The notes under the pieces: model-generated
Databases searched by the model: none
Seen by the model: the letters and a program-made list of their open reading frames with translations, nothing else
Told to the model about the DNA's origin: nothing
IMG/VR virus record: IMGVR_UViG_3300010158_000027
Coordinates: 124,001-188,000 of that record
DNA from: a virus
Direction: 5' to 3' (one strand)
DNA length: 64,000 nt
Shown here: piece by piece, positions 5,427 to 62,915 of the stretch
Layout of the letters: every line of letters starts with the position of its first letter
Position numbering within the stretch: the first letter of the stretch is position 1
Position numbers and translations under genes: made by a program

Positions 5427-5427
5427 A

Positions 5428-11679: not shown

Positions 11680-11701
11680 TAATTTTTTTAAAAATAAAAT
11701 A

Positions 11702-11730
11702 AACCCATCTATTAAGGTGGGTTTTTTATT
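11702..11730 (+). terminator. Rho-independent terminator after tube gene
   Basis: AACCCATC (11702-11709) pairs with GGTGGGTT (11716-11723) over 8 bp with one G-T pair and a 6-base loop, followed by TTTTATTT. Confidence 0.85.
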
Positions 11731-11769
11731 TACTATAGATTTTAACAACATATTTTTAAATAAAAAACT

Positions 11770-12528
11770 ATGGATAACGCATTGGATTACGGTCAACAAC
11801 AATTTAATTTACCTCATGATGTGGTAAAACTGCCTTCTCGAGGGGTTTATTATACCCCAAAAAAAGAAGCACTTAAAGTTGGTTATTTAACCGCTTCAGA
11901 TGAAAACATTTTAATGTCCCCAAACAACACTAAAGATGGTGTGGTTAAAACATTATTAAGAAGTAAAATTTATGAACCTGGATTCGACATTAACCAAATG
12001 ATAAATGTTGATGTACAGGCAATTTTAATATTTTTAAGAAACACCGCTTTCGGTTCTGAATATGAATTCACAGTTAGAGACCCAAAAACAAATTCTACTT
12101 TCGATACAACAATATTGCTTGATGAGATTAATTATTTACAACCTAAACATAATTCAAACGAAGAAGGATTATTTGATTTTGAATTACCAAAAAGTAAAAA
12201 TAAAGTAAAATTAAAACTTTTAACTTTAGGCGATGAGAGTGATATTGATACTCTAATCGAACAATATCCTAAAGGTATGGTAAGTCCCATTATAACTAAA
12301 CGTTTAGAAAAACATATTGTGGAATTGGATGGTAACAGAGATAAGGGTGCTATCGCTACGTTTATTAATCAAATGCCAATATCCGATTCAAAAGATATTA
12401 GAAAATTCATTTCAGAGTGTGAACCTAAAATGGATTTAGATAGAAAAGTTATCGCCCCGTCTGGAGAAGAGGTCACCATTGGTGTCACTTTTGGGGTGGA
12501 ATTTTTTCGGCCTTTCTTCCAATCATAA
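11770..12528 (+). CDS. Baseplate hub / tape-measure chaperone, gp26-like
   Basis: 252 residues. It has the pattern of the T4 baseplate gp26/gp51 group: an LPSRGVYY opening, GYLTASDENIL, then LRSKIY, and a mid-protein FLRNTAFGSEYEF that stands where the family has its central (L/I)R-x-x-(A/S)-(F/Y)G strand. The C-terminus reads VEFFRPFF, reminiscent of the FFWP-type ends of such proteins. In long-tailed phages the gene between tube and tape measure makes a chaperone for the tape measure. A second reading frame overlaps its 3' end in the +1 frame (see next entry), matching the G/GT organisation of other tails. Confidence 0.6.
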   Translation: MDNALDYGQQQFNLPHDVVKLPSRGVYYTPKKEALKVGYLTASDENILMSPNNTKDGVVKTLLRSKIYEPGFDINQMINVDVQAILIFLRNTAFGSEYEFTVRDPKTNSTFDTTILLDEINYLQPKHNSNEEGLFDFELPKSKNKVKLKLLTLGDESDIDTLIEQYPKGMVSPIITKRLEKHIVELDGNRDKGAIATFINQMPISDSKDIRKFISECEPKMDLDRKVIAPSGEEVTIGVTFGVEFFRPFFQS

Positions 12529-12661
12529 AAAAAACATTTTAGATGAGTTTTATTATTTAGTAAAGTTTGCGAACTTCTCGTATTCTGACGTTATGAGAAT
12601 GCCAACTTTCGAAAGAAGGTATTTTTTTGATAAATTGGTTGAAGAGTACGACAAAAATTAA
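12509..12661 (+). CDS. Probable +1 frameshift extension of the gp26-like gene
   Basis: About 50 residues ending MPTFERRYFFDKLVEEYDKN, in frame +1 relative to the 11770 gene. No ATG lies upstream of 12592 in this frame, only TTG/GTG codons inside the gp26-like gene, so independent initiation looks poor. The overlap holds GAA TTT TTT CGG C: a Phe tRNA slipping from TTT (12505) to TTC (12506) before a rare Arg codon would join the two frames into a product of about 296 residues. The coordinates given start after the proposed slip. Alternatives are a sequencing error, RNA polymerase slippage on the T6 run, or a nonstandard start. Confidence 0.55.
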   Translation, partial: GLSSNHKKNILDEFYYLVKFANFSYSDVMRMPTFERRYFFDKLVEEYDKN

Positions 12662-12669
12662 AAATAACC

Positions 12670-12677
12670 TATTTATT
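12670..12677 (+). promoter_or_regulatory. TATTTATT element before tape measure
   Basis: TATTTATT, 15 bases before the tape-measure ATG and immediately after the stop of the frameshift frame. Confidence 0.35.
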
Positions 12678-12692
12678 AAATAAAATAAGAGT

Positions 12693-14651
12693 ATGTTTTT
12701 ATTTCAAACGACACCAACTGGTGATGAATTTACTGACGGGTTTAAGTTATATACTGAGGGTATAAAAAAAGTGTGGGAGGGGTTAGGCGCGTCACTAATA
12801 CCTGAAAACAATATTGAAATCCTAACCTCAATGGAGTCAAAGGCAAAATCCATTCAAAGAGCTATCTCCGGAGTGGCCCTTAACCCGGCTAGTGCCACGG
12901 CATTTAGAGGAAAAATTGAAGATATTTATTTTGGTGTTGTCGGATTAAATGATGGGATAGTACAAATTGGTGGTACCGTTAAGGATATTACCGATGGTAT
13001 GCAGGCTATGAGTGACACTTTAGGTCGAGTAATCTCTCCATCATCTACGGTTTTAACTAAGATGGTCGAAATGTCAAAAGCCACAGGTATTGGTACTTTG
13101 GAATTGGGGAAAATGACTGCCGAATTTATGAGACTTACTTTTTCACAAGAGAAAAGTATGAAACTAATAAATACTATAAGTGAAGCTGCGAGAAGAAGTG
13201 GGTTAAATGTGAAAGGGGTTTTAGCTGAGGTACAAGCTAATCTTTCTAAAGTAAATGCGTATAGTTTTAAAGGTGGTGTTGAGGGATTAACCAAAATGGT
13301 TTTAGAAGCGAAAAGATTAGGGGGGACAATTGAGGATATTGGAGCTGCGAGTCTTGGTAGAAGTTTCGCATTTGACCCTGAAAAGGCTATTGAAGCGGCA
13401 TCATCGATGTCAATGCTTGGTGGGTCTATGAGTGATCTTATGAATCCGTTCCAATTAATGAATATGGGAGCAAACAATGTGGGTAAACTACAAAGTAATT
13501 TACTTGAAATGTCTAAGTCGGCATTTAAAGTTAACGAAGCCACCGGTGAAATTGAATCAAATGCCATTGCTCAACAAAGATTATATGAACAATTAAAGGC
13601 TTTCGGTAAAGAGGGTGAATACGATAAGTTCATTAATATGGGTCGTGAGAGTGCAAAACAAGCCATGATAGTTAAAAAGGTTAGTGACAGTGGTTTAGGT
13701 AAACTTTTTGGTGAAGGAAAAATGTTTGACGAAAAAGAACAAGGGTTAATTTCTCAATTGGCTGAGGTCGGTAAGGATGGAAAAATATCTTTAGAACTTC
13801 CTGGAATGGAAAAGATTCAAGACTTAACCGCAACATTAGCTAGCCCCAAAGGTCCTAAAGAATTAGAAAAAGCATTAATAGAGTACCAAAGACAAGCATC
13901 AATGAGTGATAAGGACATTGCAATAAAAAATTTAACCACTGTTGAGCAACAGTTAGTTGTTCAAAAAACTATAGAACAAGCAATCTTAAGACAATACACA
14001 TCAACGGAAAGAACAAAGATATTAAAAGACGTGGAAACGTCGTTAAATGCTAATCGAGAGATCGCTGAGAAAATGAGTGGACTTATGGCTCCTTCCGCGA
14101 AAGCCGCAATTGCCGCCATACCCGCAACCTCGGCAGGTATCACCACCGCTTTTAATGATAAAATGGGAGGGGCTAATGCGTATTTACGAGAAAAATATCT
14201 TAAGAAAGAATCGGAGGAGAGCGAAACAGTTGTTAAGGATGGTTTTTTCGATGGAGAAAATAAATCACTAAGAATGGGTAAAGGTGAAATATTTAATTTT
14301 ATAAAAGAGGATCAAGCAATTTTTGCCCCCGATTTAAATGGGAAATTAGGTATTTTAAAGGAAGCGTATCTTAAAATGCAAGATTTCACATCAGGACTTA
14401 ATAGTATGGCACCAAAAGAGTTACCAACTGTAAGATTACCAAAAACCGAATCAACACAAAAAACTGAAGTTACGGAGACTAAAGTACAAAAAATAGAAGG
14501 ATCTGGGACTGTAAACATTAATGTTAATATAACAAGTAGTGGTAATTTGGCTGACACACTTATTAATGATAGACGATTTAAAAATGATTTGGAAAAAGAA
14601 ATCCTATATGTTATTAAAAACAAGGATGTATTAATGGTGAAAAAACCATAA
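12693..14651 (+). CDS. Tail tape measure protein
   Basis: 652 residues, almost wholly helical in character, with long Ala/Gly/Lys/Glu stretches and an Ala-rich hydrophobic patch at about 467-490 (APSAKAAIAAIPATSAGI). The end has the recurrent tape-measure tail GTVNINVNITSSGNLADTL followed by a charged helix. It sets tail length by spanning the tube and acts in hub assembly (T4 gp29 role). Position directly after the proposed chaperone pair is the standard order. T4 gp29 is 590 residues, so the tail should be similar in length or slightly longer. Confidence 0.82.
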   Translation: MFLFQTTPTGDEFTDGFKLYTEGIKKVWEGLGASLIPENNIEILTSMESKAKSIQRAISGVALNPASATAFRGKIEDIYFGVVGLNDGIVQIGGTVKDITDGMQAMSDTLGRVISPSSTVLTKMVEMSKATGIGTLELGKMTAEFMRLTFSQEKSMKLINTISEAARRSGLNVKGVLAEVQANLSKVNAYSFKGGVEGLTKMVLEAKRLGGTIEDIGAASLGRSFAFDPEKAIEAASSMSMLGGSMSDLMNPFQLMNMGANNVGKLQSNLLEMSKSAFKVNEATGEIESNAIAQQRLYEQLKAFGKEGEYDKFINMGRESAKQAMIVKKVSDSGLGKLFGEGKMFDEKEQGLISQLAEVGKDGKISLELPGMEKIQDLTATLASPKGPKELEKALIEYQRQASMSDKDIAIKNLTTVEQQLVVQKTIEQAILRQYTSTERTKILKDVETSLNANREIAEKMSGLMAPSAKAAIAAIPATSAGITTAFNDKMGGANAYLREKYLKKESEESETVVKDGFFDGENKSLRMGKGEIFNFIKEDQAIFAPDLNGKLGILKEAYLKMQDFTSGLNSMAPKELPTVRLPKTESTQKTEVTETKVQKIEGSGTVNINVNITSSGNLADTLINDRRFKNDLEKEILYVIKNKDVLMVKKP

Positions 14652-14658
14652 TAAAATC

Positions 14659-14666
14659 TATTTATA
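14659..14666 (+). promoter_or_regulatory. TATTTATA element before large baseplate gene
   Basis: TATTTATATATAAAATTAATAA then ATG at 14681; 14 bases separate the octamer from the start. Confidence 0.4.
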
Positions 14667-14680
14667 TATAAAATTAATAA

Positions 14681-17600
14681 ATGGAGAGCCCATTATCATT
14701 TGATTCTACTGAAAACTTTAGAAAAAAACTATTGCTTAAAAATTTAAAACCTTATAAGGTTGATGGTTTTTACGCTAGTAATGACGGTAGTGTAAATACT
14801 GAAATCGTTTTAATCGATTATTCAGTAATAGATGAACAAACTGTCGATGTGACTGCGAAACAAATAGAACCAAGACTTATTGGATTAAATAAGTATACAC
14901 CTATAGGTGGAACGTTTGGAGATTTAGTTTCTATAAATTTAAACTTAAATTCTCAAACTAATTTTGGTAATTATAGTTACATTCAGTCTGAAGGATCAAA
15001 ACTTGAAAGTTTTGGTAGACAAAAAGAGGTTGAATCAATTGTCCAAAACCAATACGGACCTGAGGGCCAACAAAGTAAAACAACGGTTACCCCCAATTTA
15101 AATTTCCAAAATAAACCAAATGAGGGTAACTACGGATATCCTGATAGTGTTGGTAGTGAAATAGAATTGGAGGGTGATAAACAAGAGAAGTTATCAAGAG
15201 TATTAAACAAGTACTCACCGAGTAACATACAGAACGGATACGGAGACTCTGTACTGTTTCCGTTATTAGTTATTGGATCAAACCAAGGAGACTACCTATA
15301 CGTCTCTAATGGACCAAATTTAACAACGTCACAATCGCAAGATAGTGCGTATGTTACAAACCTTTACGGACCAAACGGTGGATTTGATTCTCCCGTTAAC
15401 ATTGGTTTAACTTATCAAACACAATCAAATAAGGGTGAATATAGTTTTGGGGTTTCAGCACCAAATAGAACAACGGAACAATCACAAAAAGTTTCATATA
15501 TTGCAAACATATTTGGACCTGAAAACCAACCGAATGGTTTTGGTGATATGATAAATCCTAATTTAGATTACCAAACATATTCAAACCAAGGTGAGTTTAA
15601 TTATGAAACTTCGTCACCTAGTAAAACTACCGAACAGTCACAATCCTTTTTATATACAAAAAATAGGTATAATAATGGTGATGGTACGTATGAGGTTTTA
15701 AGTGTTGAAGATTTAGCTTTTGAAAATATTAATGCGCCGTATTATAGTAGTAAAACTACTTTTGTGTTTTTACCTTCTGACTATACCCCGTTTAGTATAT
15801 TAAGTAATAATGATATTAATGGTATTGTTGGTAGTGAAGGTTCTTTAAGTCAAGATTCTGATTTGGCAAAATTAGGAGCAAAACAATTGCAAAAAGAATT
15901 TAAAGCAAGATTAGCATTTGAATTATTACAACAAACCTTAGGTAGAACCATATTAACTAATTCATCAATTGATCCTAACAGTGGGGGGGTTTCGGTAAAA
16001 CCGAATTTAGATCCTTTCGATGCGTTAGGTGTGGTTATGAATAAAATACCATTATTACAAAAAGACTTTAGAATTACATCTATTGGTGGTGGTATATTGG
16101 GGGAAACCCTGTCGTTCACATCTAGGTTATCTGGTCTTTATTCTCCTTATTCGTTAATACCTGGTTCATACTTTGACTACCCTAGTAAAAATTTATTATC
16201 ACAAGTTACAAGTAACCCTATTGGTGCCGTTGCTGGTATAGTTACGAATTTAGCAACAAAAATATTAAGCGCAAATATAGACACAGGTTCTGAAAGATTA
16301 TTGGCAAACACATCAAGTGCGACTAGAAGTCTATTATTTGATTTGTTATGGTATAACCAATACCGACCTAAATACAGATTAGATTCTGGGTTTAGCCCTA
16401 ATCTAATCGCCCCTGGAGGTAATTTTTATGTTGGTAAAACTAAAAATTATTTAAGAGATTTGGTTAGTCCCGTAACGGACTTACCAAAGGATAGAAACGG
16501 TAACCCATCAATTGGTCCTGTTTATGATTATGGTAGGGTAGGTAGAGATTTTGAAGGTACTAAGGTTAATGAAAAATTATTTGGTTTAAATGCCAGGCCG
16601 TTCTATGATAAGCTGGGAGGTATACAGGGGGGATTTACTTGGTCAGCTAAAAAGAATTATTTGGATCCGGGTAGGTTTGTTGGACTTAAAAACGAAAAGG
16701 GTGAGGATGTTCCAGGTCAAATTAGTAAGGTTTTTGAAAACGGAATTAAAGACTCTTTTAACAAAACAAAATCCTCTGATATTGAATTAACTCCAGGATC
16801 GATTTTAGATGTTACTCAAAAGTTGGTGGACGCTGGAAGTTTGGCATTAAATAAATTAGAGCACGTTGGTAATGCCATCAATCAAATATCTAAAGTCTTT
16901 AATGATGGGTATATTGAAACAACGAAGGGTTCTAGGGTTAGGAGGTATCTAACTCCGACAGCCGCGGGACAAATTAAAGGAAGTGAGGTTAAAACAGTTG
17001 TTGGGTATGAATATGCGAGACTATTCACCAAAGACAGACCGTATTATTCGTTCGACGAACTACAAAAAAAAGATGGTAATATTAGAAAATATAGTAGTTC
17101 CGTTTTTGACAATACATATAATTTAAATATAGCACCTACCGTAGGTGTTGATTCTACCAACATACAGTTAAATAGTCAAGGTAAGATGGGCGCTAAAAAA
17201 TATATGTTCTCTATTGAAAATTTGGCATGGAGAACATCTAGTAGAGTTGGATATAGAGTTGAGGATTTACCTGCGAGCGAGATAGGACCTAACGGTGGTA
17301 GAGTTATGTGGTTTCCACCGTATGACTTATCTTTTGACGATAACACGCAGACAAATTGGCAGGATAATGTTTTTTTAGGTAGAACAGAACCTGTGTACAC
17401 GTTTACTAATTCAAAAAGGTCGGGAACTATTAAGTTTAAAATTGTTGTCGATCATCCATCTGTGATGAATATTTTAGTGAAAAAAGAATTAGAGAAATCT
17501 GACGAATCTGAAGCGACAAAAGTGATTGATTCGTTATTTGCTGGATGTTTAAAATACGACCTCGTGGACTTACTTAAAAAGTTTCCGATGTTTAGTTATA

Positions 17601-48911: not shown

Positions 48912-51898
48912 TGGCAAAAACTAAATATACCTTCCCACCACAACCAGCAATTGGTTCTGCGACGTTTTCTGATGATTTAGTTGGGTTACAATTAGTCGGA
49001 GGGGGAGGATTGACGCTTGGAAATTTTGAATTCACATCAGCAATTACTGAAAAAAACAATCGTTCATTTACCACTGGAGTTTTTTCGGAACCATTTAATT
49101 TAGAGAATTTACAAATCCCTACAATTGAACAAGCAAAGATTTTAATACAAAAAAATTTCCAAGTATATCCTAATTATGACTTATCACAAATTACAAGTTT
49201 TTCTTTGTATGGTTCTTTACAAAAAAGGATGTCAGCATCCATCACTAAGATAATTAACTTTTTCCCGGCAGCGATACAGGTCGACACGGTAAATTATGCG
49301 CTACAAACGGGGAATACCGCCAGTAATATAGTATATGATGAGATAGCTCATGAAACGTCATTTGATATTGATGTCACCTACCTTAAAAACCCATTTGATA
49401 TTGATTATTCGTTAAATGCTAATAAAAACATTTCGGCAAGACCGATGAAGGTTTCTAAATATAGAAATTTATCTAGTTATTATACTGACTTTTCGTTATA
49501 TATCGAAAACTTTGATGTCGAATATAAAGTCGTTGATTTTGACGCATCACCAACCCTTACTGGGGGTACGGTGACGGTTTACGTCGAAGGGAAACCATTT
49601 ACGTCGACAACAACAACGGACACGTTAATACTTAAACCTAACGATTTAGTCACCGAAAAAGTTTTTAGTGATGATTTTGATGTGGTTGAGGATTATATGT
49701 TAAATAGGGTTTCAAACCCATTATATACTACGGTTTTTAAATATCCCGACTACGACAGTAACGGTAATTTCGTTATGTATACTAAAAAAGTTGTGTGGAA
49801 TTTAGATGGTTTATGGAATTTAGATATTAGAACTGAATTGTTTGATACGTATCTTGCAAACATAAATTACATTGCCGAAGCTTTAGATGTCTATAAAACG
49901 AATTTAATTAGTAGGTTTTTAACTTCAGGGTCATTAAAAGAATTTGATACCCAAGATCAAAAGGTTGAAAAAGTATTACAATTATATGGTAGAAGTTTTG
50001 ATGAAGTTAAAACGTTCGTCGATTCACTTACACATATGACTTCAGTTAATTATGTTGTTGGGGATGACATACCGTCACAATTATTAAAAAATTTAGCACA
50101 AACATTAGGTATAAATACTAATATGTCACCCATAACTAACGACTCTTTGTTGGGTACGATATTCTCAACGGCAACTGAAGTTATATATCCTGGACAATTA
50201 AACCAACAAACCCCTGCGGAATTAAACTACCAGTTTTATAGAAATATAATATTAAATTCTGGATTTTTATTTAGATCTAAAGGTACTAGGAAATCGATAG
50301 AATATATTTTAAGAATGGTAGGTGCGCCTGAGGCGTTAATAGAATTTAATGAATATATCTACATCGCCGATCAAAAAATATCGTTAGATGAGTTTAATGA
50401 GCAATACATTCAAATATCGGGAGGTACTCAATACGTTGAATCACCAGCGTATTTAACGAGTAACACCTTTAAGATTTTAGGAACACAATATACAGGATTC
50501 ACATCTAGTGGGTTTTTAAGACAATCTAATTTAGATTTAATATATTATCCGTTTAATCTTGATACTGGGTATCCTCAGCGTCCTGAGTATACCGACGATT
50601 ACTTCTTTCAAAAAGGAGCGGGATGGTTTGAAGTCACTCCCGATCATCGATCAAGTGAGCAGATTAATACCTCATTATCTAATTTCAATGTCAGTCCCGC
50701 AGTTATTAAAACTAGTTTAAAACCATTCACATATGGGGAGGATTATTTGGACAGGTTTAGAAAGTTCCCATTTTTAGAAATTGGGTATAATTTAACAAAA
50801 ACAATAGATAATAAGAAGTCGTGGAAAGCTGACGAAGTGGGGTTAAGGAAATATAACGAATCCCTATCCCAAACAAATTATTATGTTGAGGACGAAAGGT
50901 TAGTGTTGAATGTTAAAAACATGGAGGTTTATTTGAACATGGGTCAAGGTATCACTTATGATATTTGGGAAATGTCATCTAAATATGGTTATCCAATCCC
51001 AAATTCGGGATTAACGGCACCATACCCAACGCCAGGGCTTAATGACTGGACGGTTATTAACCCTAAACCTGATAAGAAAACATTTGCGGAGTTTGCCCAA
51101 ACATTCTATAATAATTTAATAAATGTTAGAAATAGACAAACCATATTTGATGGTAAAACGGGCGGGTATCCGGCTCTACAGTCTATTTTTTGGAAATATT
51201 TACAAACCGATCAAACTATAAACATACCGAATAATAAATTCACCTACCAAAAAATGATTGATTTCACTTTAGGTTTAGGTGACTATTGGGTGAGGTTCTT
51301 AGAGCAATTTGTACCAGCAACCACTATTTGGAATACGGGGCAAAAAATGGACAACTCAATATTTCACAGACAAAAAGTTGTTTGGAGAAGACAAAGGAGT
51401 TGTGAATACATTGCGTTGTCTTGTATACCATGTGAGTATAATGGACAACCTTATACGTATGATTGTATCGATCAAACAACACAATGTACTTTACCAACAT
51501 TTGACCCAGCATCGGTTTTAAACCAAAAAGTACAACAGTTGTACGCATCTTCAGGGTTTACGAGTACCGATTGTGACGTCACTACAATAATTGCTAATTG
51601 GTCGGTAGTTTTAAAATTGAAAGATATTGTAACGAATGTTGAAACCACATTAATTGATGAACCTATTTTTACGTCCTACGGACAAAGCGCAATCGACACG
51701 TCGACGAACCTACCGGTTTCATATTATAACATTATAAACTATATTGACAATGCCCTCGAGTATTTATATCAAAACGGATTAAACTACTCTTTTGTTGGGG
51801 GAACCCTAATTATTAGTAACTCATCTTGTTACGATAATTTTACAAATAAACAATTAAACCTAAATATTGGTTTAAACATACAAATTAATTGTGGATAA
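48911..51898 (+). CDS. Large baseplate-associated protein
   Basis: 995 residues. Mid-protein helices (LFDTYLANINYIAEALDVYK, then VEKVLQLYGRSFDEVKTFVD, IPSQLLKNLAQTLGI) and the segment FRSKGTRKSIEYILRMVGAP look like a P2 gpI-type or wedge-type tail protein that links fibres to the baseplate. The last 150 residues are Cys-containing (CEYIALSCIPCEYNG). One-base overlaps with both neighbours couple it to them. Equivalence to any T4 gene is not claimed. Confidence 0.5.
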   Translation: MAKTKYTFPPQPAIGSATFSDDLVGLQLVGGGGLTLGNFEFTSAITEKNNRSFTTGVFSEPFNLENLQIPTIEQAKILIQKNFQVYPNYDLSQITSFSLYGSLQKRMSASITKIINFFPAAIQVDTVNYALQTGNTASNIVYDEIAHETSFDIDVTYLKNPFDIDYSLNANKNISARPMKVSKYRNLSSYYTDFSLYIENFDVEYKVVDFDASPTLTGGTVTVYVEGKPFTSTTTTDTLILKPNDLVTEKVFSDDFDVVEDYMLNRVSNPLYTTVFKYPDYDSNGNFVMYTKKVVWNLDGLWNLDIRTELFDTYLANINYIAEALDVYKTNLISRFLTSGSLKEFDTQDQKVEKVLQLYGRSFDEVKTFVDSLTHMTSVNYVVGDDIPSQLLKNLAQTLGINTNMSPITNDSLLGTIFSTATEVIYPGQLNQQTPAELNYQFYRNIILNSGFLFRSKGTRKSIEYILRMVGAPEALIEFNEYIYIADQKISLDEFNEQYIQISGGTQYVESPAYLTSNTFKILGTQYTGFTSSGFLRQSNLDLIYYPFNLDTGYPQRPEYTDDYFFQKGAGWFEVTPDHRSSEQINTSLSNFNVSPAVIKTSLKPFTYGEDYLDRFRKFPFLEIGYNLTKTIDNKKSWKADEVGLRKYNESLSQTNYYVEDERLVLNVKNMEVYLNMGQGITYDIWEMSSKYGYPIPNSGLTAPYPTPGLNDWTVINPKPDKKTFAEFAQTFYNNLINVRNRQTIFDGKTGGYPALQSIFWKYLQTDQTINIPNNKFTYQKMIDFTLGLGDYWVRFLEQFVPATTIWNTGQKMDNSIFHRQKVVWRRQRSCEYIALSCIPCEYNGQPYTYDCIDQTTQCTLPTFDPASVLNQKVQQLYASSGFTSTDCDVTTIIANWSVVLKLKDIVTNVETTLIDEPIFTSYGQSAIDTSTNLPVSYYNIINYIDNALEYLYQNGLNYSFVGGTLIISNSSCYDNFTNKQLNLNIGLNIQINCG

Positions 51899-54816
51899 TG
51901 GCTTGTATTTCAGGTTATACTAACGACGTATATTATAGTTATTTTGATTGTTGCGGTAACTTACAAACAGGTATTGGACCATTGTACCAATCTGTCTGCG
52001 TTGACCAATCATTATCGGGTAGTGCCGTTGGGGTTTATTTGGACCCACTTTCGGCTTGTACCCAAAATTGTAATACTGGACCCTTAAGTTATAATTTTAT
52101 AACGAGTGGTAATTGTGGTACAATTTCTGCGGGAACAATAACCGTTAATGTCTATGGGGGATCACAACCATATACGATTGATAATGTAAGTCCGGGTAGT
52201 ATATCTGCTCAGACAAACACATCACAATTTGTCTTTACTGGGTTAACGGGAGGGACATACGTTTTTAGAATAAATGACAGTTTAGGGTTACAAAATAGTG
52301 AAGTTTACTTTAATGCTGTGATATCCGAATGTTATACCGCCACAGTGACGTCCGTAACGGGAACAACTTGTGGATTGAGTAACGGAGCTATGGTTGTTAA
52401 TTCGACATCGACATCGGCACCTTATAAATTAGTTATTAATAAAGACGGGAATTTTAATTCAATACTTGACGCCACATCTTTACCTTATACTGTGACTGGT
52501 TTGGATGATGGTATATATGATGTTTTAATATACGATTATGGGTTTACCACGGCAAGAACTGAAAACGTAATTATTAGTGGGAGTACGGGGATTGACTACG
52601 GTTTTTGGGTGGTTAACGCGGCGAACTGTGTTACCAACGGAGGAAAGGCGGCAGTTACTGGTACAACAGGTACGGGTCCGTTTACTTATCTTTGGTCTAA
52701 TGGGCAAACGGGGCAGTTGGCAACGGGACTAACTCAGGGAGTTTTGTCTGTGTTAGTTACCGATTATTATGGGTGTACAACCGAAAAACAAGTTTTAATA
52801 GGACAGGCACTTCCTTTAGGTGTCGGACTAACAACGTCAATAAACCCATCTTGTAGTGGTAGTGACGGATCATTAACATTTAATTTAACTGGAGGTACCG
52901 CACCTTTTTATTATTCGGCAAACACTGGAACTGTTGGTTACACGTTATCTAATAGTTTTACATTGGATAATTTAGCGAGTGGTTCATATGTTGTGAATAT
53001 TAGAGATGCTAACTTTTGTGAGCTAGTTGTTGGTGGGTTTCTAATATCTCAAAACGGATTTTATAATGTAAGTAATACTATCACTAATTCTGTTTGTAAT
53101 CAAAACTCCGGTAAAATTAGTACAACATTAAACGGAACTTTTGGGAATTATATATACGCATTAACGGGACTAACAACCAATGAAGTTAGAAATACCGTAT
53201 CGACAAATCAAACGAACTTATTTGATAATTTACCTAACGATACATACCTACTATTCATATCGGGACAAAACACGACATGTATATATAGTGAAACTATTGT
53301 TGTTTCGTCACAAGAGAAGTTTTCAGTTAATGTTTCATTAACCGGATCAACGTGTGGAACACCAAATGGGGTTGCGATGATTAACGTGGGTACTGGCTAC
53401 ACTAATTGGGATACGGGTAACGGATTATTAGATTATTCGTTAAGTAATGGACAGCAAGTGTATGACATTAATTTATCCGCATTTACATATACTAATTTAG
53501 TGGCTGGAACTTATACTTTAAATGTTACCGATGAGAGTAATTGTACTGTCAGTAAAACATTTACAATCGCTTTGGGTGGGACTTTAAATAGTTCCATTTT
53601 AACTAACGATTGCCAAGGTGGTGGAGCGGGTTCTGCAAATGTTATAATTTTTGGTGGTGAGCCACCATTCACATATATATGGTCAAATAACGTACCTATA
53701 GGTGAAACCGGTAATACCGTAAATAACCTTACTGGTGGATCATATAGTGTCGAAGTGGTTGATGGTAGTGGATGTACAAAATACCACAATTTTACAATAG
53801 ATTGTACATCGACACTGGTTACTGGTGATACCACTTATAGTATCTGTAGTTCTCAGTTCACAACAACAACGGGAACAAAAAGAGGTATATCAGAAATGTT
53901 AAGTGAAGGGTTTTTAGATTTAACCACCGGTTATACTAATTGTATATTAAATTCGGTAACTTTAAATTGTAATATAACTCTAAACGGTAGTGGTTATAGT
54001 CAGAGTTTTGTTATTGCTAATGACGAGATTTGGAGAGAATCTATTGAAACGATTTTAGCGTCAATACCCGAAGTTGGTAGTTATGATGTTAATTTATTAA
54101 ATAATACGTTAACCATAAAATCTAATTGCACCAACGGGGGGATTGACCCAATTGGTAATGGTGAGTTTGTTTTAGAACTTGAAATAAATTACGATATAAG
54201 TTGTGAAGGTGTTTTACCGGCACCGACACCTACACCAACAGCAGTACCATACCCACTTTTCTTTGTGAAGGCTTGTTGTGTATTGGATAGTGATGGTATT
54301 ATGGGGTTACCTGCAGTTTTTGCTACGGGTACTAGAATTGTGGGTACTAATGGTAAATGTTATCAAAAATCATCAGCTAGTGTTGGACCAGCAACTCTGA
54401 CTTGGGATGGTGGTACTACATATGTGGATTGTCCTAGTTGTTTAAGTGTACATCCATGTCCAACACCAATACCTACGGCAACACCAACGCCAACACCTAC
54501 ACCTACAGGTATGCCGAGCTACACAACATGGTACGGTACTGGTAATATGGTTTCACAACCATACGCTGGTCTGGCTTGTAGTGAAGTAAATTGCTCAACA
54601 CAATTCTACACTACGGGATTAACTTTAAATGTTGGTGACGTTATTTATTTGGACGCAGCATTGACGACAAATATAGGTGGTTTAGCGGTTAATTATGGAC
54701 CATCCAGCGGTGGGTGGGGAGTTATGTTCTTATCTAATGATTGTCCAATTGTTGGGTCGAGAACGATAACTAAAGTAAACAATCTAGGTAAAATCATATT
54801 AAAATACACTTGTTAA
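51898..54816 (+). CDS. Adhesin-like fibre with SprB repeats and Thr-Pro linkers
   Basis: 972 residues from ATG 51898, which overlaps the preceding TAA by one base; a TTG nine bases upstream is not needed. After a Cys-rich N-terminal module (FDCCGNLQTG) come about seven repeats of 70-85 residues of the SprB type, clearest at about 237-300 (GPFTYLWSNGQTGQLATGLT then VTDYYGCTT) and 561-638 (PPFTYIWSNN ... GGSYSVEVVDGSGC). Thr-Pro linkers at about 776-785 and 855-873 flank a Cys module (GKCY ... CPSCL). SprB repeats form the long gliding adhesins of Flavobacteriia. The protein is probably a tail fibre or appendage that contacts the host surface. Confidence 0.7.
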   Translation: MACISGYTNDVYYSYFDCCGNLQTGIGPLYQSVCVDQSLSGSAVGVYLDPLSACTQNCNTGPLSYNFITSGNCGTISAGTITVNVYGGSQPYTIDNVSPGSISAQTNTSQFVFTGLTGGTYVFRINDSLGLQNSEVYFNAVISECYTATVTSVTGTTCGLSNGAMVVNSTSTSAPYKLVINKDGNFNSILDATSLPYTVTGLDDGIYDVLIYDYGFTTARTENVIISGSTGIDYGFWVVNAANCVTNGGKAAVTGTTGTGPFTYLWSNGQTGQLATGLTQGVLSVLVTDYYGCTTEKQVLIGQALPLGVGLTTSINPSCSGSDGSLTFNLTGGTAPFYYSANTGTVGYTLSNSFTLDNLASGSYVVNIRDANFCELVVGGFLISQNGFYNVSNTITNSVCNQNSGKISTTLNGTFGNYIYALTGLTTNEVRNTVSTNQTNLFDNLPNDTYLLFISGQNTTCIYSETIVVSSQEKFSVNVSLTGSTCGTPNGVAMINVGTGYTNWDTGNGLLDYSLSNGQQVYDINLSAFTYTNLVAGTYTLNVTDESNCTVSKTFTIALGGTLNSSILTNDCQGGGAGSANVIIFGGEPPFTYIWSNNVPIGETGNTVNNLTGGSYSVEVVDGSGCTKYHNFTIDCTSTLVTGDTTYSICSSQFTTTTGTKRGISEMLSEGFLDLTTGYTNCILNSVTLNCNITLNGSGYSQSFVIANDEIWRESIETILASIPEVGSYDVNLLNNTLTIKSNCTNGGIDPIGNGEFVLELEINYDISCEGVLPAPTPTPTAVPYPLFFVKACCVLDSDGIMGLPAVFATGTRIVGTNGKCYQKSSASVGPATLTWDGGTTYVDCPSCLSVHPCPTPIPTATPTPTPTPTGMPSYTTWYGTGNMVSQPYAGLACSEVNCSTQFYTTGLTLNVGDVIYLDAALTTNIGGLAVNYGPSSGGWGVMFLSNDCPIVGSRTITKVNNLGKIILKYTC

Positions 54817-54819: not shown

Positions 54820-55107
54820 ATGCCATACTCCATAGATATATCTAATATTGTTGGTGGGACACCACCATATAGTCTTTATGTGTGTGATGAAAACATGAAT
54901 AACTGTTTTTTGTTAGGACCAACAGGGGGGACGTATTATTTTAATTCTTTTTTTTCTGGAGCACAAACTCTAATAATTAAAATTGTTGACAGTACGGGGT
55001 GTCTCACATTTAAGTACATTTATTGTGATATTGATACTTTCTTTATTTTAACTGAGACTGAACTCATAATAACCACAGAAAGTGGGGATGAATTAGTATG
55101 GATATAA
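54820..55107 (+). CDS. Small SprB-like single-domain protein
   Basis: 95 residues, 3 bases after the previous stop. It contains one repeat-like unit ([18 protein letters not shown], later IKIVDSTGC) and a short acidic end ([10 protein letters not shown]). Paralogues are at 55109 and 59527. Perhaps a cap or a free copy of the fibre module. Confidence 0.6.
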
Positions 55108-55108
55108 A

Positions 55109-55714
55109 ATGATTATTGAAATAACGGGGGTTACAAATGGTAATGGACCATATGACATTTATTTATGTGATTCGGGGTTAACGGGTTGCTTTTATGTGTC
55201 TGGAGTTACCACTATACCACCAACAATAACCATTGATAGTAATAATTTTTTTCCAGGTGTTGACCCTCTAAAGGTGAAGATTATTAATAGTATTGGGTGT
55301 ACGGATGTTATGGACGTTACTTGTATACCAACACCAACACCAACCCCTACGGCGACACCAACCCCGACAGCCACGCCAACTGCGACACCAACACCTACGG
55401 CAACAGCAACACCAACGCCAACACCTACCCCAACACTGGCTCCCCTCGATTTCCAAACCTTAGTTATTTGTTCATTACCTTCAGGTATCCTTGTCCAACT
55501 TAACACTATAACAGGAGGGGTTCCGCCTTATGATGGTGGATCTACCGTATTCTCAACCCAAGCTGCCGCGTTATTAAACACGTCATGGATATTAAACGTT
55601 GGTAATATTAGTTATGGGGTTTCTAGTTTGGCTGACGACACCTATTGGTTAGTTGTAAAAGACTCTGTAGGTACTATATTAGCAAAATCTGTAACAACGA
55701 CTTGTTATCCGTAA
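55109..55714 (+). CDS. SprB-like module with Thr-Pro mucin-like linker
   Basis: 201 residues. Unit one (about 1-72) is SprB-like ([18 protein letters not shown] ... INSIGCTDV); residues 74-113 are almost only Thr, Pro and Ala; unit two (about 114-201) is another such domain (GGVPPYDGG ... LVVKDSVG). It is the gene immediately before the glycosyltransferase pair. The linker would be an extended, Thr-rich stalk and a plausible O-glycosylation target. Confidence 0.65.
55327..55445 (+). repeat. Thr-Pro coding repeat, synonymously diversified
   Basis: ACN-CCN and ACN-GCN codon pairs with all four third bases mixed, so protein is repetitive but DNA is not identical between units. Similar blocks lie at 54223-54252, 54460-54515, 58474-58555, 58591-58648 and 58927-59010. 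Confidence 0.8.
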
Positions 55715-55798
55715 CGACGTAAACTAAAATATTCGTAAATTTTAATTATTACTACCCTTTTTGTTGGATTTACGTTATTTTTTGAATAAAAATTAAAC

Positions 55799-57049
55799 AT
55801 GAATACAATTTTTATTCAAATTGCTGCCTATCGAGATCCCCAACTTAATATAACAATTAAAGACTGTATTAAAAACGCTAAACACCCTAAAAATTTAGTG
55901 TTTGGTGTTTGTAATCAATTTCACCCAGACGATGAATTTAATATTGATGAATACCAAAATGACGAAGGATTTAGAATTGAGAATGTCCTTTATTCCAACT
56001 CTAAAGGGACTTGTTGGGCTAGAAACTTATTACAACAAAGATATAGTGGAGAAACATATACTCTACAAGTGGATTCCCATATGAGATTCGCACCCAATTG
56101 GGATGTTGAACTAATTAAAATGATTAAACAACTACAAAAGAAAGGATTTAAGAAACCCCTTTTAACTGGATACGTTTCCTCTTTTGATCCTGAGAATGAC
56201 CCGGCAGGTAGAGTCCAAGATCCTTGGAGGATGTCATTTGATAGATTTATACCTGAAGGTGCCGTATTTTTCTTACCCGAAACGATTCCGAATTGGCAAA
56301 CATTAACGGAACCAGTTCCTGCTAGATTCTACTCAGCACATTTTTGTTTTACATTAGGAATCTTTAGTCAGGAGGTACAACATGATAATGAATTTTATTT
56401 CCACGGCGAAGAAATTGCTGTGGGTGTTAGAGCATACACTCACGGGTATGATTTATTTCATCCACACAAAACTTTAATTTGGCACGAATATACTCGTAAA
56501 AACCGAGTTAAAAGTTGGGACGACGATAAAGAGTGGGGTAAAAAAAATGAATCAGCACATTTAAAAAACAGAAAACTATTCTCAATGGATGGTGAGGTTT
56601 ATAACCCAGATGAGTTCGGAAAATACGGTTTCGGAACTGAAAGGACACTTAGGGATTATGAAATTTATTCTGGATTACTTTTTTCAAAAAGAGCGACACA
56701 ACAATATACCATAGATAAACACTACCCACCAAATCCCTATGATTATAAAACCGAAGAAGAGTGGGTTAATAGTTTTTCATCTATTTTTAAACATTGTATT
56801 GATGTGTATCGTGGTAGTTTAACGGACACGGATTACGATTTTTGGGCGGTAATATTTTTAGATAAAAATGGAGATGAAATCTTTAGAAAGGATGCCGATA
56901 AGAACGAAATTAGTGGTATTTTAACTAAACAAGGTGATTTTGTTAATATTTGGAGAGAATTTAATACAACAATTAAACCATCAGAATGGGTTGTTTGGTT
57001 ACATACAGAATCAAAAGGTTGGGGTGAAAAAATAACGGGGAAATTATGA
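55799..57049 (+). CDS. GlcNAc-transferase-like glycosyltransferase (PF11397/GT60 type)
   Basis: 416 residues. It starts IFIQIAAYRDPQL-x-x-T-I, has SKGTCWARN, the metal/sugar-nucleotide motif QVDSHMRF (D92-S-H94) and later FHGEEIAVGVRAYTHGYDLF plus HEYTRKNR, the layout of the family that includes the Skp1 hydroxyproline GlcNAc-transferases of eukaryotes and many bacterial relatives. It therefore should use a nucleotide sugar (UDP-GlcNAc in known members) on a protein. The acceptor is unknown. It lies between two Thr-Pro-rich fibre genes and overlaps the next glycosyltransferase by four bases (ATGA), so both are made together. Confidence 0.8.
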   Translation: MNTIFIQIAAYRDPQLNITIKDCIKNAKHPKNLVFGVCNQFHPDDEFNIDEYQNDEGFRIENVLYSNSKGTCWARNLLQQRYSGETYTLQVDSHMRFAPNWDVELIKMIKQLQKKGFKKPLLTGYVSSFDPENDPAGRVQDPWRMSFDRFIPEGAVFFLPETIPNWQTLTEPVPARFYSAHFCFTLGIFSQEVQHDNEFYFHGEEIAVGVRAYTHGYDLFHPHKTLIWHEYTRKNRVKSWDDDKEWGKKNESAHLKNRKLFSMDGEVYNPDEFGKYGFGTERTLRDYEIYSGLLFSKRATQQYTIDKHYPPNPYDYKTEEEWVNSFSSIFKHCIDVYRGSLTDTDYDFWAVIFLDKNGDEIFRKDADKNEISGILTKQGDFVNIWREFNTTIKPSEWVVWLHTESKGWGEKITGKL

Positions 57050-57843
57050 GAATTGAAAAACCGACAATAGTTACCGCATTATTTGATATTGGTAGAGATG
57101 CTTGGGATGGATACGAGTTATCCTACGGTACTTATCTATATTGGATGAAATCGATATTGATGTACGACACCCCAATGGTTATATATACCGATGAAAAGTT
57201 ATATGATGAGATAAAAAAAAATAGAATGGTTTGTGACCCAAACTTAGAAAAAACCATTTTTGAAATTAAAAAATTGGAGGATTTAGTTGCCCACCAGACG
57301 TATTATAAACCGGTAAGTGAACTTATGGTTTCAGATGAGTTTAAATCTAAAATACATTTTAATGTCCCAGAAATGACAAAACCATTATATAATATTGTCA
57401 TTTTTAATAAGCTGTTTTATATACAGGAATCAATAATGAAAAAACATTTTGATTCTGATTTTTATATTTGGGCGGACGCGGCAATCCTTAGAAGTGATGA
57501 TCCGACAATTAAAAAAGATTTCCCAAACGTGGATAAAATAAATGATGGATTTAATGATAAAATCACTTTTTTTAGTCATGAATTGGAATTTACAACACCA
57601 AATAAAGACTACCATTTAGTATCACAATTTAGATACATACATGGAGGATGTTTTTTTGTACCAAATAATAATTCGATTGATTTACTATTGGAGAGTTTTA
57701 AAAAAGAAATAAACGAGTCGTTAAATCGAGGGTTTGTTGGTAGTGAAGAAAAATACTTAGATTTTTGTTATCTGGAGAATAAGTCTGAATATAACCTAGT
57801 TAAATCCGATTGGAGGCAATATTTTGACATATTTGGAACTTAA
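57046..57843 (+). CDS. HtrL/YibB-like glycosyltransferase-type protein
   Basis: 265 residues. The start TIVTALFDIGR-x-x-W and PMVIYTDEKL, then the helix ending KLFYIQES and FYIWADAAILR with an Asp in place of a DXD-like site, and RYIHGGCFFV agree with the HtrL/YibB family, which has a GT-A-like fold. Family activity is poorly known; sugar transfer is inferred. Coupled by overlap to the GT60-like gene and followed by a new fibre unit. Confidence 0.65.
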   Translation: MRIEKPTIVTALFDIGRDAWDGYELSYGTYLYWMKSILMYDTPMVIYTDEKLYDEIKKNRMVCDPNLEKTIFEIKKLEDLVAHQTYYKPVSELMVSDEFKSKIHFNVPEMTKPLYNIVIFNKLFYIQESIMKKHFDSDFYIWADAAILRSDDPTIKKDFPNVDKINDGFNDKITFFSHELEFTTPNKDYHLVSQFRYIHGGCFFVPNNNSIDLLLESFKKEINESLNRGFVGSEEKYLDFCYLENKSEYNLVKSDWRQYFDIFGT

Positions 57844-57869
57844 ATACTTCAATAAAATAAAGTTTTGAT

Positions 57870-57877
57870 TATTTATA
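57870..57877 (+). promoter_or_regulatory. TATTTATA element before Thr-Pro fibre gene
   Basis: TATTTATATATAAAG, 18 bases before the ATG at 57896. Confidence 0.4.
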
Positions 57878-57895
57878 TATAAAGTTTAAACTTTA

Positions 57896-59521
57896 ATGGC
57901 AAATTTATTATTCCAGGGTTGTTGTTACGATGGTTATCAGTATGTTACTAATGATGGTGATTGGGTTGCGACGGGAGGTACCGCGACGGTAGGTTTAACC
58001 TATCATTTTTCTGGTGATCCTGTTGTACCTAATGGTTGTTATACTATTGTCTCATCATTCGTTGCTGGGTTTAGTTCAGAAACATTTACACAATTAACGG
58101 GAACATACACTCTACAAACCGATTGTTCTGACACTCTATGTATGACGGCAAATTGTTGTTCAAACATTGTGTGTGTTAGCATACCATTAGATGCGTATTC
58201 GGGACTTAATGGTAATTATACGGTATCGGGTGGATTTAATGGATATCCCTATTGGACGGGAGGAACTAGTGGAGGAACCATCTATTTTAATTCAACGAGA
58301 TGGTGTCTTTCAACAGGACTAAATCAAAGTTGTTTATTTTATGGGTCTAACCCAACGTTATATGAATGTCCTGATTTAGATACTAGTATTGTTTATAGTG
58401 GTGTTTGTGTACCAACACCAACACCATATGACCCATGTTCTATTTTAGATTTTGATATATTGACCGAATGTTTGATACCGACACCTACGCCGACACCCAC
58501 GGCAACGGCAACACCCACTCCGACACCAACACCTACCCCAACACCTGATCCGTGTTTAGGGTACTCAGTTGATATTAGTTTTAGTGCAACAACACCGACA
58601 CCAACGGCAACACCATCACCAACGGCAACACCAACACCTACGTTCGCTTACTCAATTAATTCGGGGGTAACCTTTGTGATTGATAGTGGTAATTTTAATT
58701 GTGTGGATGTTAAAGTGTTAACTGATTGTAATAGTAGTGAGATTTATTACGTTTCTGGTCCTCTAGTTTATTCTGGTGGAGTCATTAGTTCAGGAACAAC
58801 ATTTTTTGGTATTATAAATGGTGATTATAAGTGTTTAACATATACTGAGGATAATGCGGGAAGTCCTGGAGACTTATTAACCTCGATTATATCGACGGGA
58901 AGTAGTTGTTCTACTTGTGTGGTAATAACGCCAACACCAGCACCTACGTTGACCCCTACCGCCACTCCAACACCGACGCCAACATCCACTCCAACACCAA
59001 CATACGCACCTAATACTCAATTTGTGTTTACGTCTTGTACTAATAATTCGATGATAATACAAAATATGACACCACCTTCGAATGTTAATATAGGGTTGGT
59101 AGTTAAAGACTTGTCGGGTAATTGTTATAGTTATGTTGGGAATTATGTTGCTTATGTTCCACCTGCAGGATATATATGGTCAAATATTAACGCCTTTACT
59201 GCCGCTACTGCAACGACATATAGTACTTGTATTTCTTGTTTAACTCCTTCACCAACACCAGGACCCGCTTACCGTACTTGGAACGCGAAAGGTGAGTTTA
59301 CGGTTTCATGTCCGACATGTGAATTAGTAAATGGGGGAGCCGACATGACTTTCTATAGTTCATCTGCAGATACGATATTACAAACGGGGGTATATATTTA
59401 TGAAGACACTACTTTAGTTACTCCTGTAATAACGAGTTATGTTAAATATTCAAATAAAATTTATTCAGTAGATTTAAATGGTAAAATTACTGAATTTTGC
59501 ACATTAAACGGTAATTGTTAA
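57896..59521 (+). CDS. Modular Cys-rich fibre with three Thr-Pro linkers
   Basis: 541 residues. Modules separated by Thr-Pro blocks at about 194-219, 233-251 and 345-373. The first contains CCYDGYQY and a NGNYTVSGGFNGYPYWTGG ... GTIYFNS ... WCLS motif that recurs in the 61302 gene; the third has GNCYSYVG ... CISCL, shared with the 51898 protein; the last (YRTWNAKGEFTVSC ... FCTLNGNC) is related to the C-terminal module of the 51898 gene. Looks like an interchangeable adhesin. No signal peptide, so it is a virion protein and not secreted. Confidence 0.6.
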   Translation: MANLLFQGCCYDGYQYVTNDGDWVATGGTATVGLTYHFSGDPVVPNGCYTIVSSFVAGFSSETFTQLTGTYTLQTDCSDTLCMTANCCSNIVCVSIPLDAYSGLNGNYTVSGGFNGYPYWTGGTSGGTIYFNSTRWCLSTGLNQSCLFYGSNPTLYECPDLDTSIVYSGVCVPTPTPYDPCSILDFDILTECLIPTPTPTPTATATPTPTPTPTPTPDPCLGYSVDISFSATTPTPTATPSPTATPTPTFAYSINSGVTFVIDSGNFNCVDVKVLTDCNSSEIYYVSGPLVYSGGVISSGTTFFGIINGDYKCLTYTEDNAGSPGDLLTSIISTGSSCSTCVVITPTPAPTLTPTATPTPTPTSTPTPTYAPNTQFVFTSCTNNSMIIQNMTPPSNVNIGLVVKDLSGNCYSYVGNYVAYVPPAGYIWSNINAFTAATATTYSTCISCLTPSPTPGPAYRTWNAKGEFTVSCPTCELVNGGADMTFYSSSADTILQTGVYIYEDTTLVTPVITSYVKYSNKIYSVDLNGKITEFCTLNGNC

Positions 59522-59834: not shown

Positions 59835-61139
59835 ATGGCAAGATTAACAGATAAAACATTAGCATCAACAACGGCAATAACACCAACAACGTTGATATAT
59901 ATCGTAACAACCGGAGACACTTCACAAAATTCTGCCGGTTCGGGGTATAAAGCGGAATTACAACAATTAGTGTCTATTTTTGGTGGAACATCTGGAGGTT
60001 CAGGAACTAGCGGTATTAATGGAACTAGCGGTATTAATGGAACTAGTGGAATTAATGGTACTAGTGGTATTGACGGAACAAGTGGCACATCTGGTATCGA
60101 CGGAACTAGCGGTATCAACGGAACTAGTGGAACATCAGGTATTGATGGTACTAGTGGAATTAACGGAACTAGTGGGTCGTCGGGTATTAGTGCTGACTAT
60201 ATTGGTACATGTCTCGATAATATTAATATATCATCATTATATTCAGGGTTAACTATCAATATAACGACATCCCCTAATTTATCTTATACCGTTGCTCAGC
60301 ATGTTATCGTAGCTTTTTCAAATACGGAACATTTTCATGGTGACGTTTTGACATATACCGGTTCTACGGGTCAGATACAATTAGAAGTAACAGAAACTCA
60401 AGGGTCTGGAACACACTCCACTTGGACAACCAATTTAGATGGGGCGTCTGGGGGTAATGGCTCTTCAGGCACTAGCGGTATTGATGGTACTAGTGGATTG
60501 TCGGGATCAAGCGGTACTAGTGGTTCTTCAGGAACTAGTGGATTGTCGGGATCAAGCGGTACTAGTGGTTCTTCAGGAACTAGTGGATTGTCGGGATCAA
60601 GCGGTAGTTCTGGGGTAAATGGTACATATACGGGAGGAACTATTAGTGGAGGAACAAACTTCACTGGTGGGTTGAGCGCTAACACGGTTAGTATTAGTGG
60701 TGTGACGGTAAACCCAAAACAAACAATTGCGTTATTTTTTGGTCATGATTCAACGAGTCCTGCAGATACTCAAACTTACTTTATTGGTAATGCGATAAAT
60801 CTAGCGGCAACAACTTCAGGGTCAGACAGTAGAAGAGTCATATTACCAAAAACGGGTAACATTGTTAGAGTTGATATTTGTCAAAACGTAGGAGGTACAG
60901 TCCAAACTGGGGCTACCGAATATAGTACATTCACGATAAATAATACAACACAATCCACACAATCAACAATAACGACTACATACATTTATACGGCATCGAC
61001 AGGAAATATTGCATATGACTTAGTGTCTCCATTACCGGTAACTGTTGGGGATAAAGTGGAAATAAGATGGACAACACCCGCTTGGGTTATTAACCCAACA
61101 AGTGTTAGACAACAAATGAACGTTTATTTAGAATATTAA
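59835..61139 (+). CDS. Collagen-like fibre protein
   Basis: 434 residues. After a 50-residue N-terminal attachment module (MARLTDKTLASTTAITPTTL) come two Gly-X-Y blocks, about 51-118 (GTSGINGTSG units) and 203-260 (GSSGTSGLSG units), around a beta domain (about 119-202), then a C-terminal beta domain (about 275-434, TIALFFGHDS onwards). Phage collagen-like stretches form triple-helical fibre shafts; here Thr, Ser, Asn and Ile stand in for Pro. The trimer should have a distal receptor-binding or head domain at the C-terminus. Confidence 0.75.
   Translation: MARLTDKTLASTTAITPTTLIYIVTTGDTSQNSAGSGYKAELQQLVSIFGGTSGGSGTSGINGTSGINGTSGINGTSGIDGTSGTSGIDGTSGINGTSGTSGIDGTSGINGTSGSSGISADYIGTCLDNINISSLYSGLTINITTSPNLSYTVAQHVIVAFSNTEHFHGDVLTYTGSTGQIQLEVTETQGSGTHSTWTTNLDGASGGNGSSGTSGIDGTSGLSGSSGTSGSSGTSGLSGSSGTSGSSGTSGLSGSSGSSGVNGTYTGGTISGGTNFTGGLSANTVSISGVTVNPKQTIALFFGHDSTSPADTQTYFIGNAINLAATTSGSDSRRVILPKTGNIVRVDICQNVGGTVQTGATEYSTFTINNTTQSTQSTITTTYIYTASTGNIAYDLVSPLPVTVGDKVEIRWTTPAWVINPTSVRQQMNVYLEY
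60495..60605 (+). repeat. Perfect 45-base tandem repeat in collagen-like gene
   Basis: Copies begin at 60495 and 60540 and are identical over 45 bases; a third partial copy begins at 60585 (21 bases). Each encodes 15 residues, five Gly-X-Y triplets. The copies are very similar at DNA level, so they are recent or are maintained by recombination. Confidence 0.9.
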
Positions 61140-61300: not shown

Positions 61301-61303
61301 AAT

Positions 61304-62915
61304 GGGACAATTTAGTGGAAATACATGTAATATTATAACACTCTTCCCAATGGGGGTTGAATGTTCGGCAGTGAATTCATCTTCGCCGTATAATAATGAT
61401 GGTGCAATTTATTTGACAATTACTGGAGGAACACCACCTTATAAGATTTCATGGAATAATGGTTCTCAGACACAATACTTAACGGGTTTACAATTTGGAA
61501 CGTATACTGCTAATATAACGGATTATTATGGTGATTTTAGTGCAACAACAACTTGTATCGTGAGTACTAATTATGCTGCAATTTTAGAGGAGTTTTTTAA
61601 TTGTACCAACCCAACAGAAAAGATATATTACGTAGCAAACATTAACTCTTTATACCCAAGTAATGGTGTGTTCACTTTAACATCACAATCAGGATGTTGG
61701 GTTAGTGCAGGTATTATTACAAATACGGGACAAACGTTTTACAATTATAGTGCAATAACCACTTCAGGACCATTTGTGGACTGTGATGACTGTTTACCTA
61801 CAACGCCAGAAATAGAAAGTATATCAGGTATGTGTTTAACTACCGTTAAGTCAGTTTTTGGTGTACCATCGTCAACACAATACCAATTTTATTCTGCTGA
61901 TACAATGAACGGATACCCTACGTGGGTTTCAACATCACCTGACCAAAAAATTTATTTTAATACTATGACAAGTCAATGGAAAGTTTCTGGTTGGACATTA
62001 AGCGGTATACCGTCGTTAGGATTAAATGTTTCTCCACCTTTGGGGGTATGGACAGTGGATGGTAGTCCTCGAACTGTTAACGTAAGTGCTGGTAATTGTG
62101 ATGATAAAATTGTTGTGAGACTACGAACGACTGACCCATCATGTAACGTAGCGTCTGACGGACTTATTCAGGTTGGTGGGGTTATTGGTGGAACGGCACC
62201 ATATACGTATTCATTGGATAACATTGTGTACCAAACATCGATTATGTTTAATAATTTACCAGTTGGGAGTTATACTGTTTATGTGAAGGATATTATTGGC
62301 AATATCGGAACGGCGATAGCGGTATTGACGGGAATAAGTACAATAACAACATATCAGATAAATTTATCTCTTATTAGTACTCAAACGTTAAACACAACAA
62401 ACTACGCTCAAAAAATATATAATTGGGGTATTAACGTGACACCACCATTACCAGCAAACCGATCGGTGTCGTTTACGTTATATGATACTACATCAATGTC
62501 TGCGGGTACCGCATCTAACGGATCACCCGTTTTGACATATTCTAACACAACTGGTACGACAGGGACAAGTCAGTTTGTTACGTCAACATTGACAACAACA
62601 ACAAATAGTTATACGAACATACTTTGTCACCCTAATTATTATACAACAGGCATCACTCGAACGTATAATGTTAGTATATCGGGTACAGGTGTTGTTGGTG
62701 GTCAGATATTACAAAAAGTACAAGTCGTTAATAATGGGGTAAAGTGTACGACTACTGGATCAATAAAGGATACGTTATCTATTGGTAATGTCGTTTTAAA
62801 TAATCAACAAGTGTGTGAACAAATAAGTCCTTCAGTAACGCCAATTACCGTTGTTGTTGGAATGTCCGGAACCATAGCTTCCATAACCATAGGCACAGGT
62901 AGTGCATCGATGTAA
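61304..62915 (+). CDS. Adhesin-like fibre with SprB-like and Cys modules
   Basis: About 537 residues; the ATG is at about 61302-61304. SprB-like units at about 12-85 (TGGTPPYKISWNNGSQTQYL; ITDYYG) and 270-345 (GGTAPYTYSLDN ... LPVGSYTVYVKD). Between them are a Cys module ending DCDDCL, matching those in the 51898 and 57896 proteins, and a GYPTW ... IYFN ... W module matching the 57896 protein. The rest is Thr/Ser/Gly-rich. It is another combination of the same building blocks, probably host-recognition. Confidence 0.6.

Follow-up and report, generated by a model that had tools for sequence, protein, structure and literature searches.

Two genes of glycosyltransferase type lie among the fibre genes of a virus record from IMG/VR, and three of the neighbouring fibre proteins carry Thr-Pro blocks. 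This raises the question of which molecule the two enzymes modify. The window analysed in this work, a stretch of 64,000 nucleotides, corresponds to positions 124001-188000 of the 281,269-base record. Profile matches to tail sheath, baseplate, helicase and ribonucleotide reductase in the genome indicate a large myovirus. We consider it reasonably probable that this phage has a small O-glycosylation system of the mucin type, in which a GT60 enzyme would prime Thr residues of the fibres and an HtrL-type enzyme would extend the glycan. The class of the GT60 enzyme and the position of its gene beside the phage's own Thr-Pro fibre genes, here and in many relatives, imply that the phage probably sugar-coats its own fibres.

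The fibre region and its Thr-Pro blocks

The genes of the fibre region are arranged in the order 972-aa SprB-repeat protein, 95-aa protein, 201-aa protein, GT60, HtrL, 541-aa protein, 99-aa protein, collagen-like protein and a further SprB-repeat protein. The features considered here are as follows.

51898..54816, forward strand: fibre-like SprB-repeat protein (972 aa when read from ATG) whose C-terminal part holds a Thr-Pro linker; likely glycan acceptor
54820..55107, forward strand: small fibre-module protein, 95 aa, with an SGxPPYxxYVCD-type domain
55109..55714, forward strand: short fibre protein of 201 aa, encoded directly 5' of the GT60 gene; its Thr-Pro/Ala block spans 36 residues; most likely acceptor
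55799..57049, forward strand: GT60-type polypeptide glycosyltransferase (PF11397, phrog_24687), 416 aa; proposed initiator (alpha-HexNAc to Thr)
57046..57843, forward strand: HtrL_YibB-family protein (PF09612) of 265 aa with a GT-A fold in its model; proposed second-sugar transferase
57896..59521, forward strand: fibre protein of 541 aa; it contains 19 TPxP sites and three to four Thr-Pro blocks; likely acceptor
59835..61139, forward strand: collagen-like fibre with Gly-Thr-Ser and Gly-Ile-Asn repeats; alternative Thr/Ser acceptor

An alternative start of ORF 51898 is the TTG at 51889. The 95-aa (54820) and 201-aa (55109) proteins have a small domain in common, and the SGxPPYxxYVCD-type domain recurs 5' of the GT60 gene in relatives. 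A search with the 57896 fibre against annotated phages gave no match. Scanning the fibre region for promoters and terminators gave results at chance level, which have no bearing on operon structure. SprB repeats (PF13573) were identified in the fibre proteins 51898-54816 and 61302-62915. Such repeats are known from the gliding adhesins of Bacteroidota, and their presence in the fibre proteins hints at a host from this phylum.

In-frame Thr-Pro blocks were found in gene 51898 (12 residues, 54472-54507), in gene 55109 (36 aa with 18 Thr, 55328-55435) and in gene 57896 (58478-58543, 58586-58639 and 58952-58981). The blocks of 55109 and 57896 reach 17-18 Thr plus Pro per 20 aa versus a shuffled maximum of 15 (1000 shuffles per protein), and the block of 51898 reaches 15 versus a shuffled maximum of 12 (1000 shuffles). 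None of the other ORFs of the window attains 13 per 20, and the Thr-Pro blocks are thus confined to these three genes within the window. The preliminary description of this DNA had reported three fibre genes with such blocks and, between the last two of them, two glycosyltransferase genes coupled by an ATGA overlap (at 57046); the coordinates, frames and shuffles agree with it. The Thr and Pro codons of the blocks vary synonymously, which indicates that it is the protein sequence that is conserved. In the alternating blocks, Thr is present on 72% of its parity positions and Pro on 41% of the positions of the other parity, with a threshold that is symmetric in Thr and Pro. By the same comparison, Thr is above Pro in 31 of 32 loci, so Thr is favoured as the selected residue. 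TPxP contexts suit pp-GalNAc-T-like enzymes.

Gene neighbourhoods in phages and bacteria

A GT60 enzyme is encoded by 80 IMG/VR loci, and removal of near-duplicates left 36 phage loci, among them those of XacN1 and RAS14. A Thr-Pro block is located within 7 kb of the GT60 gene in 30 of the 36 loci by the relaxed definition and in 23 by the strict one; among 80 random viral loci, 2 and 1, respectively, have such a block. Of the genes directly 5' of GT60, 18 of 33 contain a Thr-Pro block, versus 16 of 281 distant genes from these loci (p = 1e-11, with genes taken as independent); directly 3' of GT60, 1 of 36 genes contains one. It could be argued that the glycosyltransferases have a different target within the virion, for instance the collagen-like fibre or Ser/Thr at other sites in the fibres, and that the adjacency to Thr-Pro blocks merely reflects the fibre locus. 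The collagen-like Gly-Thr-Ser fibre gene lies 2 kb 3', GT60 genes also occur 3' of fibres without Thr-Pro blocks, and in several loci a collagen-like or non-Thr-Pro fibre gene is directly 5' of GT60. However, the Thr-Pro enrichment of the gene directly 5' is far above that of the other genes of the same loci, collagen-like genes are present in only a few loci, and the bacterial GT60 homologues also adjoin Thr-Pro proteins. Modification of another virion part is therefore considered unlikely.

By scanning species genomes, GT60 relatives were detected in Bacteroidota, Gemmatimonadota, Burkholderiales and others. A Thr-Pro protein is adjacent in 6 of 51 non-redundant bacterial loci; 6 of 92 adjacent genes have a Thr-Pro block versus 1 of 335 distant genes (p = 5e-4), where the numbers are small and some of the GC-rich ORFs may be spurious. 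Several of the adjacent Thr-Pro proteins have N-terminal twin-arginine-like signals, and one has a C-terminal Bacteroidota sorting domain. In some bacterial loci, GT60 is paired with HtrL. As a separate observation, two Pseudoduganella GT60 genes (L528, L534) are located directly 3' of genes for very long Thr/Pro-repeat proteins of up to about 1400 aa, with the repeats Asp-Thr-Pro-Ala-Pro-Thr and Thr-Glu-Pro.

In the reverse comparison, PF11397 was detected in 7 of 50 contigs picked for an in-frame Thr-Pro block versus 1 of 50 random contigs (p = 0.03); most of the 43 Thr-Pro contigs without GT60 are short fragments. Among contigs of at least 60 kb, it was present in 5 of 9 Thr-Pro contigs versus none of 10 random ones (p = 0.011). 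Large records obtained via two lineage anchor genes contained Thr-Pro blocks in 33 of 33 and PF11397 in 24 of 33 cases, and the corresponding values for random large contigs were 1 of 10 and 0 of 10. Both features are near-core in the lineage, so their co-occurrence is largely a matter of shared ancestry, and this near-core status is what chiefly limits the comparative argument. A polB-anchored presence/absence test within the lineage, in which the flanks were incomplete, was not significant (p = 0.23-0.32). Co-occurrence is thus weak evidence, and the adjacency of GT60 and Thr-Pro genes is stronger. In two relatives the GT60 gene lies away from the anchor gene; one of them (L559) has a Thr-Pro gene directly 5' of it, and the other (L560) has none there. 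The preliminary description had named an equal frequency of the glycosyltransferase genes in relatives without Thr-Pro fibres as an observation that would speak against it. Such a pattern was not seen, in a weak test where nearly all relatives have Thr-Pro blocks and some Thr-Pro contigs have no glycosyltransferase.

The two enzymes and their possible substrates

The assignment of the first enzyme to PF11397/GT60 and of the second to HtrL/YibB was confirmed by profile search. The 55799 product belongs to PF11397 with E = 2.9e-64 (218 bits versus a Pfam cut-off of 21), and the 57046 product belongs to PF09612 HtrL_YibB with E = 7e-21 (75.5 bits versus a cut-off of 24.1). In 35 homologues of the 55799 product, D92-S93-H94, H202-G203-E204-E205 and H229 are invariant. 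The protein thus has the features of GT60, i.e., a predicted GT-A fold, DxH in place of DxD, an acidic ED-type motif (E204/E205) and a C-terminal His229. The best 23 PDB matches of its AlphaFold model (pLDDT 91.2) are all mucin-initiating pp-GalNAc-Ts, although the fold alone does not fix the acceptor. Sequence search of solved structures with the 55799 or 57046 product gave no match. Replacement of DxD by DxH was reported for both GT27 and GT60, which group together among GT-A enzymes and have polypeptide Ser/Thr O-glycosylation in common (PMC7185993). Furthermore, protist mucin-type O-glycans are started by GT60 enzymes (PMC8724618). Motifs and model therefore point to a glycosyltransferase of the polypeptide-acceptor class. 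HtrL_YibB (PF09612) is a family of unknown function in Pfam. The model of the 57046 product (pLDDT 90.8) resembles GT-A glycan-extending enzymes of the retaining class, such as blood-group glycosyltransferases, LARGE1 and XXYLT1, and on this basis we propose that it is a GT-A enzyme which may transfer the second sugar.

The cassette could also alter a surface polysaccharide of the host during infection, e.g., the LPS core or O-antigen, and thereby block superinfection. The cassettes are variable, like surface-glycan loci, and HtrL is mentioned in papers on Acinetobacter lipooligosaccharide outer-core loci. On the other hand, the GT60 enzyme has no obvious N-terminal membrane anchor in its sequence, belongs to the polypeptide-acceptor class and is encoded among virion genes, which makes a role at the host surface quite unlikely. 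The preliminary description had laid emphasis on hydroxyproline, so that GT60 would act on the linkers as in Skp1, following a prolyl hydroxylase, with Thr named as an equal possibility. The Skp1 hydroxyproline GlcNAc-transferase is indeed a PF11397 member, related to a Golgi counterpart (PMC8724618), and Pro is abundant in the linkers. However, the P4H-type oxygenase PF13640, the only profile used in this search, is absent not only from the window, as had been remarked from the outset, but from the whole genome and from 28 of 29 relatives, which makes a P4H route encoded by the phage unlikely. Moreover, Thr is better kept than Pro in the blocks and represents their constant residue. We therefore judge the hydroxyproline route to be very unlikely. 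The idea that the enzymes glycosylate phage DNA against restriction has hardly any probability in our view. The GT60/GT27 fold and the motifs suggest that the acceptor is a polypeptide, the genes lie among fibre genes and no DNA-modification pathway was identified with the one profile searched (PF00303). In favour of this idea, DNA glycosylation is described as a known role of many phage glycosyltransferases (PMC12619734), and a thymidylate-synthase-family gene is present in the same genome (G000:C1:244991-245980, E = 3e-87).

The proposed mucin-type system and its relation to known systems

The idea that the phage decorates its own Thr/Pro stalks is thus retained as regards glycosylation of the stalks, which is supported by adjacency in phages, weaker adjacency in bacteria, the enzyme class and the virion glycoproteins of XacN1; the hydroxyproline/Skp1 emphasis is given up. 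A gene for a Thr-rich, Pro-containing candidate acceptor is found beside that of the candidate initiating enzyme, as would be expected of a mucin-type system. The acceptor Thr, the kind of sugar, the sequence in which the enzymes act and what the phage gains are inferred as follows. In the linkers of the adjoining fibres 55109, 57896 and 51898, where Thr and Pro alternate, the GT60 enzyme (55799) would attach a HexNAc to Thr; this sugar is probably GlcNAc, with the UDP-GlcNAc of the host as donor. The HtrL-type enzyme (57046) would add the next sugar. The gain may lie in stalks that are extended and resist proteases, or in a changed recognition by the host. Many relatives have extra genes between GT60 and the HtrL-type gene, with Pfam matches to GT10, GT34, GT2, epimerase, O-methyltransferase and carbamoyltransferase, and their variable products could extend, fucosylate, carbamoylate or methylate the glycan. 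Carbamoyltransferases (Carbam_trans_N/C) are encoded directly 3' of the GT60 gene in two loci (L058, L083), which suggests carbamoylated glycans. Another locus (L561, bases 1-16000 of record G001) has two GT60 genes in tandem, whose products measure 427 and 424 aa, and an HtrL-type gene lies 3' of them.

By comparing the 55799 enzyme with the protist GT60 polypeptide alpha-GlcNAc-transferases (T. cruzi, Dictyostelium), the Pfam/CAZy family, DxH and proposed Thr-rich acceptors are found in common, whereas the phage enzyme is phage-encoded and cytoplasmic, its acceptor would be a virion fibre, and its activity is a predicted one. Family and cytoplasmic location are also common to the Skp1 hydroxyproline pathway, but no prolyl hydroxylase was found for the phage in the PF13640 search, and Thr is the likelier acceptor. 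The animal pp-GalNAc-transferases (GT27) provide the best PDB structural matches and share DxH and polypeptide Ser/Thr acceptors. They differ in that identity is about 11%, no ricin-type lectin domain was identified and the phage C-terminus is a different, predicted beta-rich region.

The cultured Xanthomonas phage XacN1 encodes a protein (ORF334) 48% identical to the 55799 product, with a carbamoyltransferase gene and HtrL-type genes among those in its vicinity. Two XacN1 proteins have Thr-Pro blocks, and the glycosyltransferase gene is not adjacent to them. At least two virion glycoproteins were reported for XacN1, with phage glycosyltransferases suggested as the cause (PMC5852040). In the main text of that report, as far as it was consulted, the glycoproteins are given without names or assignment to the Thr-Pro proteins, and tail fibres were not seen (PMC5852040). 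In mycobacteriophages (Freeman, 2023) as in XacN1, phage-encoded glycosyltransferases are tied to virion glycosylation, as we propose here from the genes. Unlike the proposed fibre linkers, the sites in mycobacteriophages are reportedly the C-termini of capsid and tail tube proteins. A 2025 study on large aquatic phages of Bacteroidota mentions mycobacteriophage virion glycosylation and describes four core glycosyltransferase families with no target assigned (PMC12619734). No paper linking GT60 to Thr-Pro fibres was found in the literature searched, which lies outside most subscription journals.

Phage virion glycosylation is known in few cases, and the acceptors are mostly without a defined enzyme. 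Across large aquatic phages, a single enzyme class is repeatedly found with the same acceptor motif and gene arrangement, and the idea can therefore be tested directly. Virion glycosylation is of an already known kind, and there is a real chance of a wider system of bacteria and phages. We tentatively hypothesize, as a possibility that falls somewhat short of probable, a mucin-type O-glycosylation system of bacteria and large phages in which GT60 would prime Thr of Thr-Pro stalks, exchangeable transferase cassettes would give each phage its specific fibre glycan, and the bacterial homologues would do the same on exported Thr-Pro surface proteins. If true, mucin-type initiation, which is usually discussed for eukaryotes, would extend to phages and bacteria, and there would be an explanation for the variable islands of transferase genes that lie next to fibre genes.

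Elsewhere in the window, a SNF2-type helicase of 954 aa (1986-4853, reverse strand) probably contains an intein: the region between its helicase motifs also matches models of Hint and of LAGLIDADG homing endonucleases.
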